NCBI GenBank assembly: GCA_017646785.1
Contig: JAGCLX010000098.1
Location: forward strand, 1 to 51,178
Length of the DNA stretch: 51,178 nt
Direction: 5' to 3'
Origin: Alistipes sp.
GTDB taxonomy: Bacteria > Bacteroidota > Bacteroidia > Bacteroidales > Rikenellaceae
Made by a program: the position numbers and the translations under genes. Position 1 is the stretch's first letter; each line of letters opens with the position of its first letter. The notes beneath the pieces were generated by a model. The model did no database searches and had not been told where the DNA came from. It worked only from the letters and a program-made list of their open reading frames with translations. This document shows positions 30,822 to 35,716 of this stretch, one piece after another.

Positions 30822-30841
30822 ACGTTTTGGGCAGATATTCC
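30822..30841 (+). promoter_or_regulatory. Candidate AraC operator, copy 1 (upstream of the araC-type gene)
   Basis: ACGTTTTGGGCAGATATTCC. The same 20 bp, with one change, recurs at 32420-32439 upstream of the GH97 gene. It lies about 40 bp upstream of the predicted -33 site, consistent with autoregulation. Confidence 0.55.
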
Positions 30842-30880
30842 TGGCTTTTATCCCCATTTTCACAATAATCACGCAATTTA

Positions 30881-30911
30881 TTGTGCTATTATTCCTAAAA
30901 TTGTAATTTTG
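30881..30911 (+). promoter_or_regulatory. Predicted promoter of the AraC-family gene
   Basis: TTG at 30881-30883, a 20-bp spacer, TAATTTTG at 30904-30911. Predicted leader about 14 nt. Confidence 0.5.
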
Positions 30912-30928
30912 CAAAAATTGTGGCAGCC

Positions 30929-31735
30929 ATGGTCGATATAGAGCTACTTGAGAATGAGGAGATACTTCGGGACATCCGTTTCCCGCACAAGATTGAGAGG
31001 GTCACGCAGATAGTAATCACTGCGGGCAGCATCTCCTGTATTGTCGACTTCCGCCACTACTCACTCCATGCCCCCGCCATGGCGATATTCCTCCCCGATC
31101 AGGTTGTCGAGTCGATAGATGTGGATGCGGAGTTCCAGGGCTTCGGCATGGTTATAAGTGAGGAGTTCACCAACTCTATAAACCTCCCCGTGAGCCTACA
31201 GGAGCGTTTGTTTCTTAAGAACACTCAGTTTCACTCCATCTCAAATGAGGAGCTTAAGGCATACCAATCGTGCTTCGATCAGGTGTCGAGCGTGATGAAA
31301 CAGGAGGATAACCCTTATCGCGAGGAGATAATAAAACACCTCTTCTCGGCATACTACTATGGGCTGGGATACTATGTCCACAGCCAGCAGGCGGAGCATG
31401 AGGCGATGACACCACAGCAGGAGCTCTGCGAAAGGTTTATTGTCATGGTCTCGGAGAACTTCAAAAGAGAACGAGATATTGGCTTCTATGCTGATAGACT
31501 GTGTGTTACAAACAAATATCTCTCTACGCTTCTGAAGCAACACACGGGCATGACAGCGCTGGAGTGGATAGAGCGCTATGTGGTTCTCTATGCCAAGAGC
31601 TGCCTCTCCTCTACTACGATGTCTGTGCAGCAGATTAGCGACGAGCTCGACTTCCCGTCGCAGTCGGTCTTTGGCAAGTACTTCAAGCGCGTCGAGGGTC
31701 TCTCACCAAAAGCATATCGCCAGTCACTAAAGTAG
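30929..31735 (+). CDS. AraC-family transcriptional regulator
   Basis: 268 residues from the ATG at 30929; a GTG three codons earlier is possible. The N-terminal ~150 residues are a cupin-like sensor region (VITAGSISCIVDFRHYSL; MAIFLPDQVVESI). The C-terminal ~100 residues are the double helix-turn-helix: first IGFYADRLCVTNKYLSTLLK, second VQQISDELDFPSQSVFGKYF, ending with the typical GLSPKAYR. It binds DNA as an activator or repressor. A 20-bp motif upstream of this gene recurs between the small divergent operon and the GH97 gene, which points to both as targets. The ligand is unknown. Confidence 0.92.
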   Translation: MVDIELLENEEILRDIRFPHKIERVTQIVITAGSISCIVDFRHYSLHAPAMAIFLPDQVVESIDVDAEFQGFGMVISEEFTNSINLPVSLQERLFLKNTQFHSISNEELKAYQSCFDQVSSVMKQEDNPYREEIIKHLFSAYYYGLGYYVHSQQAEHEAMTPQQELCERFIVMVSENFKRERDIGFYADRLCVTNKYLSTLLKQHTGMTALEWIERYVVLYAKSCLSSTTMSVQQISDELDFPSQSVFGKYFKRVEGLSPKAYRQSLK

Positions 31736-31750
31736 CGACTGACGATATTG

Positions 31751-32149
31751 CTAATCTATCGTTGCTATGATCTCCCCTTCGTGCTCGCTTACAACCTTAT
31801 TGCCCTCTATGCGCACCTTGGTATAGGGGTGGCGATAACTCATGTAATCCACGATTAGCGCGATAATAAAGGTGTGAACCTCCTCTTTGGTGCACGCCTC
31901 ATCGTTATAAGCTATGGCGAGCGACTCCCTCCAGTAGGACACGTTGACTATGTTTCTGCACCTAGTGTTCCATCCACTTCGGCTCATCAGTGGCGGTGGG
32001 GCAACGATATTGTCTATAAGGGAGCTTTTGCCTCGTAGCTTGATGACCCGTCTATTAAGGTGTGGCATCGCATAAAACGTCTGCTTCAGACCATACGTCA
32101 GGCATATGTGGTGCAGCGGCTCGGCAAATGTAGCAACTATCTTACCCAT
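31751..32149 (-). CDS. Hypothetical protein, 132 residues
   Basis: I do not recognise this protein. It has no signal peptide or membrane helix. It contains basic stretches (LNRRVIKLRGK) and a C-terminal part rich in beta-forming residues (KVRIEGNKVVSEHEGEIIATID). It starts 2 bp after the stop of the 62-residue repeat protein, so the two are almost certainly one transcript. It converges with the AraC gene, whose stop is 15 bp away. The reading frame is intact and composition resembles its neighbours, so it is probably a real gene. Confidence 0.6.
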   Translation of the reverse strand: MGKIVATFAEPLHHICLTYGLKQTFYAMPHLNRRVIKLRGKSSLIDNIVAPPPLMSRSGWNTRCRNIVNVSYWRESLAIAYNDEACTKEEVHTFIIALIVDYMSYRHPYTKVRIEGNKVVSEHEGEIIATID

Positions 32150-32151
32150 TG

Positions 32152-32340
32152 CTACTTATCCTCGTTGTTCTCTTTCTCCTCGAGGAATGTCTCCACGAAC
32201 TTATCCTCTATCTTCTGATAGGTGCCAACCACCGTATCCTCAATCTTCTGGTATGTACCAACTACGCTATTCTCAACCTTCTTGTACGCGCCTACCACGC
32301 CCTTCTCAATTTTTGATGTCTTTGGTTTTAGCTCTGTCAT
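32152..32340 (-). CDS. Small protein of four 11-residue repeats
   Basis: 62 residues: MTELKPKTSK, then IEKGVVGAYKK, VENSVVGTYQK, IEDTVVGTYQK and IEDKFVETFLE, then a charged tail ENNEDK. The period of 11 (three helical turns) with Val, Tyr and Ile on one side and Lys/Glu on the other is the pattern of amphipathic 11/3 helices such as synuclein and apolipoproteins, so membrane-surface or lipid binding is possible; this is inference. Similar small Lys-Ile-Glu repeat proteins occur in gut bacteria, with no function known to me. It is first gene of a two-gene unit divergent from GH97. Confidence 0.72.
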   Translation of the reverse strand: MTELKPKTSKIEKGVVGAYKKVENSVVGTYQKIEDTVVGTYQKIEDKFVETFLEEKENNEDK

Positions 32341-32375
32341 AGTTCTATATAGTTTAATATGCTTGATTTCGACGG

Positions 32376-32383
32376 CAAAGGTA
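32376..32383 (-). promoter_or_regulatory. Predicted -7 box of the small two-gene unit
   Basis: Reverse strand reads TACCTTTG, an exact consensus match. The candidate AraC operator (32420-32446) lies about 40 bp upstream. No clear -33 TTTG, which fits an activator-dependent promoter. Confidence 0.45.
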
Positions 32384-32419
32384 GAGCAAATATCTTAGGC
32401 ATATTATTCCGATAAACTG

Positions 32420-32446
32420 ACGTTTTGGGCAGATGTTCCGAAACGT
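32420..32446 (+). promoter_or_regulatory. Candidate AraC operator, copy 2 (between the small operon and GH97)
   Basis: ACGTTTTGGGCAGATGTTCC (32420-32439), 19/20 identical to 30822-30841. This copy is also a dyad: ACGTTT (32420-32425) pairs with AAACGT (32441-32446), and CGTTTTGG matches CCGAAACG at 7 of 8. It lies between two divergent transcription units. Confidence 0.55.
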
Positions 32447-32585
32447 TGTGTGAGAGGTAAAATCGCTACATATTGAAGATGTTTGTGTAATCATAATACT
32501 ATTTCTTGCACCTTTAACCTAAATTTTGTACATTCGTGAACTATATACTTATGCAAGAGTCTTTAAATATTAAACTTATATAGAT

Positions 32586-34652
32586 ATGAAGAGAATTTTA
32601 ACCATCGTGGCGGCCATTGCAATGTTGGTGAGCTGCGGCAGTATGAGCGAGGAGAATGGCATGGTGACATCTCCCGATGGACGCACTGTACTCACATTTG
32701 ATGTTAACAGTGAAGGTGAAGCTCGCTATTCGTTGGCGTTTGCTGGCGAGGAGATTATCCGACCTTCGGCATTGAATATCGAGACATCGTGTGGTGAGTT
32801 TGACGACGATATGCACATTGTGAACATCGCGCGTAACACATTCCGCGAGGTGTGGGAGCCTGTGTGGGGTCAGTATGCCGAGATTGAGAACCACTTCAAC
32901 GAGATGGTCGTGACGCTCAAGAATGGCAACGGGGAATGTGTCGATATCACCTTCCGCCTCTTTAACGACGGCATGGCGTTGCGCTACACACTTAATGGCG
33001 AGGGCGTGTGCGACATCCTCGACGAGGAGACCGAGTTCCGCATGGCGGCAGATTTCGATGCCCACTGGATGGCGGGTAGCGACGACGATGCAGAGTTTAA
33101 CTATGTGCATACAAAGCTGTCGGAGATTAATCCCGCAACCATGCAGCAGTCGGCAGGCCGCGTGAAGGATATTATGGAGTGTGGCGTGTCAACACCCGTA
33201 GCTATGAAGAGCCCCGCGGGTAACTATGTTGCTATCCACGAGGCGGCATTGTGGGAGTACCCAGGCATGGCGCTCGAGTTCGATGCCGAGGAGCTTAAGT
33301 TTACCACTGAACTCTCTGGTGATAAGGATGTTAAGAGCCATGTTGAGCTTCCATTCTCAACGCCATGGCGCATGGTTATCGTGGGTGACAGAGTGGGCAC
33401 ATTGGTGGAGTCGTCTATGGTTCTCAACCTCAATGAGCCCTGCAAGTTGGAGGATACATCGTGGATCAAGCCTATGAAGTATGTTGGTGTATGGTGGGAG
33501 ATGCACCTCAAGGTATCAATCTGGGATATGGATGGCAAATACCCCCACTGCGCTACAACGGAGAACGTCAAAAAGTATATCGATTTTGCAGCGGAGAATG
33601 GCTTTGGCGGCGTCTTGGTTGAGGGCTGGAACGAATGCTGGGGCTGGGGTGAGCGCTTCGATTACTCGCGCCCATATCCCGATTTCGACATTGAGGAGCT
33701 TTGTCGCTATGCTGAGGAGCGTGGTGTGGAGCTTATAGGCCACCACGAGACATACGCCAATGTTGTGAACTACGATGCTCAGATGGAGGATGCCTACACC
33801 TTCTACGAGGGCCTCGGAGTGAACAATGTCAAAACAGGCTATGTTGGTAGCATCCAGGATTGCAACCACTACGATCGTGAGATGGTTGACCACTACAACC
33901 GTACCGTGGTGGAGGGCGCTAAGCATAAGCTTTGTATCGACATCCACGAGCCTATACACTCAACAGGTATCTGCCGTACCTACCCCAACCTTATGTCGGC
34001 GGAGGGTATGCGCGGTCAGGAGTGGCAGGCATGGAATGCGGGCAACTGCATAGACCACAACCCCACATTGCCCTTTACACGCAATGTAGCAGGTCCTATG
34101 GACTTCACACCTGGCATCTTCGATGTGCGCTACCACAATACGATAAACAAGGCTGCGGCAACGGCTGATGGCTCAGTGAACGAGGGCTACGAATATGTAT
34201 TCTTCGTGAACTCAACACTTGCTCACCAGCTTGCACAGTATGTGGTCTTCTATAGCCCTATACAGATGGCTGCTGACCTACCAAGCAACTACCGTGAGCG
34301 CGATGATGCACTGCAATTCATCCGCGACGTCCCCGTTGATTGGGCTACAACAAAGTGTTTGGATGGCGAGATTGGCGACTATGTAGTTACTGCACGTAAG
34401 GATAAGCATAGCGACGATTGGTATGTGGGTGGTATTACCGATGGTGAGCGTCGTGAGGTTGAGGTATCGCTCGATTTCCTCGATGCTAATCGCACCTACG
34501 TAGCTACTCTGTATCGTGATGGTGACAATGCTGGTTGGAACACCAATCCTACAGACTACATCATTGAGCAGAAGGATGTTACGAAGACTGACATGCTTAA
34601 TATCGCGATGGCTCCTGGTGGCGGTTTCGCTATAAGTATCAAGGCGCTCTAA
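32586..34652 (+). CDS. GH97 glycoside hydrolase lipoprotein (alpha-glucosidase or alpha-galactosidase)
   Basis: 688 residues. Lipoprotein signal ends in IAMLVSC. The N-terminal beta domain (TSPDGRTVLTFDVNSEG; VWEPVWGQYAEIENHFNE) and the barrel motifs KYVGVWWEMHL, GFGGVLVEGWNECWG, IDIHEPIHSTG, NLMSAEGMRGQEW and FTPGIFD are typical of the family, which includes SusB. The HEP and EGMRGQEW glutamates match the inverting alpha-glucosidase (SusB) pattern rather than the retaining alpha-galactosidase branch, but that needs alignment. No SusC/D genes are adjacent. A shared operator-like motif suggests control by the nearby AraC protein. Confidence 0.92.
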   Translation: MKRILTIVAAIAMLVSCGSMSEENGMVTSPDGRTVLTFDVNSEGEARYSLAFAGEEIIRPSALNIETSCGEFDDDMHIVNIARNTFREVWEPVWGQYAEIENHFNEMVVTLKNGNGECVDITFRLFNDGMALRYTLNGEGVCDILDEETEFRMAADFDAHWMAGSDDDAEFNYVHTKLSEINPATMQQSAGRVKDIMECGVSTPVAMKSPAGNYVAIHEAALWEYPGMALEFDAEELKFTTELSGDKDVKSHVELPFSTPWRMVIVGDRVGTLVESSMVLNLNEPCKLEDTSWIKPMKYVGVWWEMHLKVSIWDMDGKYPHCATTENVKKYIDFAAENGFGGVLVEGWNECWGWGERFDYSRPYPDFDIEELCRYAEERGVELIGHHETYANVVNYDAQMEDAYTFYEGLGVNNVKTGYVGSIQDCNHYDREMVDHYNRTVVEGAKHKLCIDIHEPIHSTGICRTYPNLMSAEGMRGQEWQAWNAGNCIDHNPTLPFTRNVAGPMDFTPGIFDVRYHNTINKAAATADGSVNEGYEYVFFVNSTLAHQLAQYVVFYSPIQMAADLPSNYRERDDALQFIRDVPVDWATTKCLDGEIGDYVVTARKDKHSDDWYVGGITDGERREVEVSLDFLDANRTYVATLYRDGDNAGWNTNPTDYIIEQKDVTKTDMLNIAMAPGGGFAISIKAL

Positions 34653-34794: not shown

Positions 34795-34822
34795 CATCAA
34801 TTGGAAAAAAGTGAACTTAAAA

Positions 34823-35716
34823 ATGCCGAAGGTTCGTGAAAAATACGAGCATCTGCGTAAGCCCGAATGGCTAAAAATTAGCCTGAGAAGTACGGCGGAT
34901 AGTGCGGAGGTCGAGCAAATCGTCGAGGGACGTTGTCTGCATACGATATGTAGCAGCGGAATGTGTCCCAACAAGGCGGAGTGCTGGAGCCGTCGTACCG
35001 CTACCTTCATGATTTTGGGCGATATATGCACACGCAACTGCCGCTTCTGCGCTACGCAGACGGGACGTCCTTTGCCTCCCGACGAGGCGGAGCCCGACAA
35101 GGTGGCAGAGAGCGTGAAGCTCATGGGCCTGAAGCATGTTGTGGTAACATCAGTAACACGTGACGACCTCGAAGATCATGGAGCACGCATCTGGGCGCGC
35201 ACCGTCGAGGCCATTCGTCGTGATAACCCTAACGCAACTATAGAGCTCCTTATTTCCGATATGGATGCCCGCCCCGAGCTACTCGACGTGGTGTTGGCAT
35301 CGCGTCCCGACATCGTGGGACACAATATCGAGACCGTTGAGCGACTAACTCCCGAGGTGCGTTCGCGTGCTAAGTATCGCACATCGTTGGCGACACTCAA
35401 GCACATCGCCGATAGCGGAGCAGTGGCAAAAAGCGGTATTATGGTCGGATTGGGCGAGAGCGAAGAGGAGGTGTTGACAACCCTCAAAGACCTACGTGAT
35501 GTGGGCGTGAGCATTGTCACCCTCGGACAGTATCTTCGACCAACAAAGGAGCACTACCCCGTTAAGGCGTATATCACTCCCGAGAAGTTCGAAGAGTACC
35601 GACTTGCAGCTCTCGACATGGGCTTCAGCTATTGTGCCAGCGCACCCCTTGTGCGCTCGTCATACTTGGCTGACGCTGCACTTGATGCTGTGAAGAAGGT
35701 ATGCAGAACGAAGTAG
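34823..35716 (+). CDS. lipA: Lipoyl synthase (radical SAM)
   Basis: 297 residues. Inserts two sulfurs into octanoyl-lipoyl domains. The auxiliary cluster motif C-x4-C-x5-C reads CSSGMCPNKAEC, and the radical SAM motif C-x3-C-x2-C reads CTRNCRFC. GHNIETVERL, KSGIMVGLGE and LGQYLRPTKEHYPV are conserved. The C-terminal Ser that ligates the auxiliary cluster lies in LVRSSYLA. I chose the ATG at 34823; a GTG at 34811 is in frame. The end overlaps lipB by 16 bp, so the two enzymes of lipoate synthesis are translationally linked. Confidence 0.96.
   Translation: MPKVREKYEHLRKPEWLKISLRSTADSAEVEQIVEGRCLHTICSSGMCPNKAECWSRRTATFMILGDICTRNCRFCATQTGRPLPPDEAEPDKVAESVKLMGLKHVVVTSVTRDDLEDHGARIWARTVEAIRRDNPNATIELLISDMDARPELLDVVLASRPDIVGHNIETVERLTPEVRSRAKYRTSLATLKHIADSGAVAKSGIMVGLGESEEEVLTTLKDLRDVGVSIVTLGQYLRPTKEHYPVKAYITPEKFEEYRLAALDMGFSYCASAPLVRSSYLADAALDAVKKVCRTK

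Follow-up and report, generated by a model that had tools for sequence, protein, structure and literature searches.

A conserved candidate operator for an AraC-family protein at the promoters of its own gene and of a small-protein operon in Alistipes

The window analysed here, a stretch of 51,178 nucleotides from a contig of Alistipes sp., contains a gene for an AraC-family regulator (30920-31735, + strand), two small genes on the - strand that are convergent to araC, and, divergent from the small genes, a gene for a GH97 glycosidase (32586-34652, + strand) with all three of the domains PF10566, PF14508 and PF14509. The regulator is 271 aa long if read from a GTG codon, the ATG at 30929 being the likelier start, and its match to PF12833 (HTH_18; E 2.5e-20, 73 bits against a curated cut-off of 33.6) identifies the C-terminal double helix-turn-helix by which members of the AraC/XylS family are recognized. 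No Pfam match was obtained for its N-terminal part. The predicted structure consists of an N-terminal beta domain and seven C-terminal helices, and the modelled beta domain matches the regulatory domains of RhaR and AraC with E values of 2.3e-5 and 4.6e-4. The first gene of the small operon (32152-32340, - strand) encodes a 62-aa protein built of 11-residue amphipathic repeats such as VVGTYQKIEDT, and the second (31751-32149, - strand) encodes a 132-aa protein, which we assign to family c2; neither protein has a match in Pfam or NCBIfam. The structure model of the 132-aa protein resembles the CAT/condensation-type (acyltransferase) folds. The active-site motif of the CoA-dependent acyltransferase/condensation-domain fold is HHxxxDG; this motif is absent from the 132-aa family, where the corresponding string is HHxxLxxGL, and the histidine pair itself (His13-His14) is invariant in the 21 sequences aligned.

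A sequence of 20 bp, ACGTTTTGGGCAGATATTCC at 30822-30841, recurs as ACGTTTTGGGCAGATGTTCC at 32420-32439 with a single mismatch and in the same orientation, as a first-pass annotation of the window had reported. Its authors had considered chance recurrence very unlikely, and we agree, in that none of 100 dinucleotide shuffles of the window contained two copies. No further copy with up to 3 mismatches exists in the rest of the window, but a third, weaker copy that the annotation had missed, TTGTGCTATTATTCC, lies 54 bp past the first one, and a scan of the window with the matrix described below found nothing of at least 13 bits beyond these three sites. Comparison with 80 related loci reduces the motif to a conserved 15-bp core, TTGGKCAGATWTTCC. 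The annotation had also described the second copy as extended into a dyad. The string ACGTTT-N15-AAACGT does exist there (32420-32446); an exact search detected it neither in the rest of the window nor in any of the related loci (L001-L080), and we reject this single occurrence as a conserved extension of the operator.

The 80 related loci are the best 80 of 88 obtained by searching genome contigs with the AraC protein. In a close set (L001-L039), from metagenome-assembled Bacteroidales, the AraC proteins are 65-80% identical to that of the window, and where the title of a sequence names a source it is ruminant gut, although several titles name none; in a distant set (L040-L080) the identity is 29-50%. 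By tblastn, and with some loci cut by contig ends, the family of the 62-aa protein is present at 29 of 39 close and 24 of 41 distant loci and that of the 132-aa protein at 27 of 39 close and 0 of 41 distant loci, and the gene that follows GH97 (34811-35716, lipA-like as judged by eye) is found at none of the 80. An acyltransferase gene such as the one before araC was seen by tblastn once among the 80 loci, at 27% identity. Clustering of the open reading frames yields a recurrent module with variable outer flanks, in which araC is accompanied by an operon drawn from four families: a barrel protein with a signal peptide (without a match in Pfam, and of outer-membrane type as judged by eye), the 11-residue-repeat protein, a helical protein of 114 aa that also has a signal peptide, and the 132-aa family. 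Genes for an NAD epimerase or for Omp85-like proteins sometimes join the module, and the window represents a short form of it with two of the operon genes. Weak Pfam matches of the helical secreted protein, SCIN among them, lie below the cut-off and were taken as chance. Since the loci were picked by their araC gene, module genes are over-represented in them, and other genes of the same loci served as controls; moreover, kinship among the relatives means that locus counts are not counts of independent events. The length of the repeat protein differs between species, reaching 96-119 aa in L040, L055 and L060, where extra repeats or a doubled unit can be seen by eye. Tandem pairs of araC-type genes occur in L040, L050, L054, L056, L057, L068 and L069, most of them adjoining the same small-protein families.

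We derived a 15-column matrix from the regions preceding araC in the window, in L001-L034 and in L039, 34 of which are distinct; L035-L038, whose araC start lies outside the available sequence, were excluded. Upstream of araC in the window, a distal site, TTGGGCAGATATTCC (30827-30841, + strand; 22.0 bits), forms the conserved core of the 20-bp motif, and the weaker copy mentioned above constitutes a proximal site (30881-30895, + strand). Sites of at least 13 bits precede araC at 35 of 36 loci including the window, the exception being L028, although these counts depend on the matrix since it was built on the same regions. At 29 of the 36, but not at the other 7, two sites are separated by 53 or 54 bp, with a score of at least 7 bits for the weaker one. 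PMC7366714 quotes a promoter consensus for the Bacteroidota of TAnnTTTG at -7 and TTTG at -33, and states that Flavobacterium johnsoniae yielded no -33 motif. The araC gene of the window has a -7 box, TAATTTTG (30904-30911, + strand), that conforms to this consensus, 20 bp after a TTG (30881-30883) with which the proximal site begins and which is likely to be the -33 box. Across the loci, 33 araC promoters have a TAnnTTTG match, and 32 of them carry a TTG 19-21 bp upstream of that box; this TTG opens the proximal site in 20 of 22 araC promoters aligned, L010 and L017 being without a TAnnTTTG match. The distance from the araC -7 box to the next ATG is 7 nt in L005, L006, L007, L008, L011, L012, L013, L016 and L021, and ranges from 0 to 21 nt in the remaining 24 promoters with a TAnnTTTG match; from these short distances, araC transcripts in this family should have very short leaders, and several may be nearly leaderless.

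At the small operon the site lies, read in the operon direction, as GGAACATCTGCCCAA (32425-32439, - strand) exactly 41 bp before a -7 box, TACCTTTG (32376-32383, - strand), of the TAnnTTTG type; no TTG is present at -33 of this promoter, and between site and box a possible weak partner half-site, GGAATAATATGCCTAA (32395-32410, - strand), coincides with the spacer consensus. Across the loci the site reads GGMAWATCTGHCCAA in the operon direction. The matrix was derived from araC upstream regions, so the operon promoters provide an independent set. The first gene of the convergent operon is present at 22 loci, from which we dropped L012, which has 2 bases above the gene, and L015, which is a copy of L014; 18 of the remaining 20 have a site of at least 15 bits within 160 bp upstream, as against none of 117 control regions, which precede other genes of these loci and of which the best scored 10.8. 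One of the two misses is a contig (L007) that ends soon above the 62-aa gene, with no barrel gene in sight, and in the other (L008) a barrel gene further up bears the site at a gap of 41 bp. Conservation in relatives had been proposed as a check on the motif, and the site is indeed kept upstream of both araC and the small-protein operon. An inverted second site occurs 54-55 bp above the operon site in L006, L008, L011, L016, L037 and L038, and L037 and L038 have a 21-bp tandem pair in either orientation. The inverted site might act on a divergent gene or take part in looping.

The distance between site and -7 box is nearly invariant. When every site with no more than 2 mismatches to either of the two consensus sequences (that of the distant set being GGAAAWATATACCAA) was paired with TAnnTTTG boxes 20-69 bp downstream, 43 of 46 pairs had a gap of 41 or 42 bp: 31 of 33 in the window and close loci (22 at 41, 9 at 42, 1 at 47 and 1 at 50) and 12 of 13 in the distant loci (9 at 41, 3 at 42 and 1 at 20). 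In a separate alignment all of 19 operon promoters, each picked for having a site, had a gap of 41. The pairs at 41 or 42 bp represent 42 distinct promoters, all of which stand before one of five families as assigned by the N-termini of the downstream genes (repeat protein 18, barrel 12, helical secreted protein 5, 132-aa family 2, epimerase 5). A promoter separate from the operon precedes the 132-aa-family gene at 8 loci, and 5 of these have a site of at least 13 bits, always at a gap of 41, while L026, L028 and L039 have none before that gene. A TTG at -33 is found in 0 of the 42 target promoters, compared with 155 of 985 TAnnTTTG matches in the loci overall, and the spacer contains a conserved TGAAnAAT at roughly the place that a second half-site might occupy. 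There are exceptions to the rule: 28 of the 39 close loci and 12 of the 41 distant ones have at least one pair at 41 or 42 bp, leaving 11 and 29 without; weaker sites at a gap of 41 are present in L025 and L038, and some other loci without a pair are cut off, which does not explain them all. These results bear on whether the two copies in the window might be a recent local duplication with no function, a notion that draws on their position in one 1.6-kb stretch and their common orientation. Each position is conserved separately, the flanks have diverged and the distances to the promoter boxes are fixed; duplication is thereby contradicted, and we regard it as hardly credible. The operator reading is, by comparison of the promoter sequences, well supported, and the proposal of the first-pass annotation that the motif is an operator for the AraC regulator stands for the araC and the small-operon promoters alike.

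Strong sites have same-strand partners at 21 bp (16 counts), 30 bp (9), 33 bp (11), 53 bp (8) and 54 bp (35), and no other distance between 10 and 69 bp reaches 4 counts, where a pair of two strong sites is counted twice and near-identical loci are kept. These spacings fall close to whole helical turns and would suit a protein bound in tandem to the same side of the helix. In addition, the two AraC clades have different sequences in the variable half of the site (TTGGKCA and TTGGTATA), the ends of the site being constant. Alternatively, the site might belong to some other DNA-binding protein, a global or a response regulator, with AraC merely linked to it; the sites are promoter-proximal, the case for AraC is drawn from sequence, and many distant araC loci have no pair at 41 or 42 bp, all of which would suit such a protein. 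We consider this quite improbable, as the site changes together with the AraC clade (in a comparison of two clades), as pairs 21 bp apart fit the direct repeats described for AraC-type domains of Bacteroides (PMC3878776), and as matches in whole genomes of relatives lie mostly at the module.

These genomes are 15 in number (~32 Mb), all from among the 80 loci. With up to 1 mismatch, the distal site of the window has 12 matches in 10 of them, 8 at the module and 4 inside open frames, and the pattern TTGGKCAGATWTKCC has 8 matches in 6 of them, 6 at the module, 1 before an epimerase gene and 1 orphan; the same patterns written backwards have 0 matches in the 15 genomes. Stray copies, a search for which had also been recommended as a check, are few in these relatives' genomes. 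The epimerase gene of L119, in one relative, was located through the motif and is unlinked: it has the site at a gap of 41 and no araC within the 3 kb available. The orphan, L117, is an inverted site pair with neither a -7 box nor a recognized module gene; it may be a module promoter in decay. Within the order, a strict class-A promoter pattern matched 2 out of 295 genomes, once at the module and once elsewhere; it missed the module-bearing genome G001 and therefore undercounts. A class-B pattern was found in 20 of 393 genomes and its backwards control in 9, so that many of the class-B matches may be due to chance.

The first-pass annotation had combined GH97 and the two small genes in one regulon, and only the part that concerns the small genes, which have the site at their promoter, agrees with our results. 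That the shared intergenic site also controls GH97, making a regulon of a glycosidase and two small proteins, is suggested by its location in the region common to both transcription units, ~150 bp before the GH97 start codon, and an AraC protein can act in both directions from such a region. We nevertheless think it unlikely. GH97 was detected by tblastn at 0 of the 80 related loci, some of them cut by contig ends, and it is downstream of 0 of the 42 target promoters. Homologues with at most 47% identity exist elsewhere in 11 of the 15 relatives' genomes; among 20 GH97 loci fetched, which do not comprise every match, 19 contain no site of at least 15 bits, and the single match, in L103, is inside the GH97 reading frame, leaving all 20 without an upstream site. 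In the window, GH97 has a promoter-like pair of its own, TTG-N20-TACATTCG (32506-32536, + strand; one mismatch to TAnnTTTG), and the site would sit roughly 100-115 bp above the GH97 start, while its 41-bp geometry points to the small operon. By these sequence criteria, GH97 is probably a neighbour and bystander rather than a target.

Taken together, the promoter comparisons make it highly probable that the motif is a site for the AraC protein encoded at 30920-31735, through which this protein would control its own gene and the small-protein operon, GH97 probably being a neighbour. The protein might bind, as a dimer or an oligomer, to sites arranged in tandem along the same face of the helix. 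In the small-operon promoter it would be placed ~40 bp above the -7 box, with a possible contact to a weak half-site where the -33 box is missing, and might there recruit RNA polymerase and so activate transcription. At araC the proximal site covers the likely -33 box, and binding there would shut off or trim synthesis of the regulator; negative autoregulation is on this ground somewhat favoured over other possibilities. The distinction between activation and repression is drawn from promoter anatomy.

Several of the products that would be regulated look like envelope proteins, so that, as inducer, a sugar is less plausible than a signal from the envelope or a lipid. The ToxT/Rns group consists of AraC proteins controlled by fatty acids (PMC8329261), and this group ranks first among the Foldseek matches of the AraC model, yet with whole-chain TM-scores of 0.32-0.36 and identities of 9-16%; as a single domain, the regulatory domain of RhaR is a comparable or better match. 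A fatty-acid ligand deduced from this structural ranking is only a guess. An extended scheme, which we offer as rather doubtful, has an AraC protein with a ToxT/Rns-like sensor respond to a fatty-acid or envelope signal and switch on promoters of a rigid layout, with TAnnTTTG 41-42 bp after the site and the -33 box missing. These would serve the repeat protein, which would be synuclein-like and coat a membrane, the outer-membrane barrel, the helical secreted protein and the acyltransferase-fold protein, and such a regulon would be without precedent in the Bacteroidales.

A repeated 20-mer has in this way led to a defined putative regulon with an exact promoter rule, in Alistipes-like bacteria, mostly of the ruminant gut, known from metagenome assemblies. 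Five protein families, four of which are without a function, gain a candidate common regulator and with it a handle on what they do. The -33 box of the Bacteroidota is poorly defined, and the contrast between 42 promoters of activator type that do not have it and araC promoters that nearly all do offers a useful test of how activators replace the -33 box. Local AraC regulons are well known as a class of mechanism; the present one is apparently new and undescribed, no paper on it having been found in the open-licence literature.

Like AraC and RhaS/RhaR of E. coli, the regulator of the window has a C-terminal double helix-turn-helix and a modelled N-terminal beta domain, with sites at its own gene, and the tandem sites 21 bp apart that are an arrangement of the E. 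coli AraC family recur among the loci studied here. Unlike in the E. coli systems, the putative targets are unstudied small and envelope-type proteins rather than a known catabolic pathway, spacings of 30, 33 and 53-54 bp also occur, and the promoters are of the Bacteroidota -7/-33 kind. The hybrid two-component systems (HTCS) of Bacteroides differ from the present protein in uniting a periplasmic sensor, a kinase and a receiver in one chain; the 271-aa protein has AraC helix-turn-helix matches alone in Pfam and none to a sensor kinase or receiver, and its putative targets are not of the SusC/SusD type. The AraC-type HTCS motifs in Bacteroides are described as two sites of 12-16 bp with spacers of 5-9 bp (PMC3878776); the two systems have in common, besides their phylum and an AraC-type DNA-binding domain, direct repeats with a period of ~20-21 bp.
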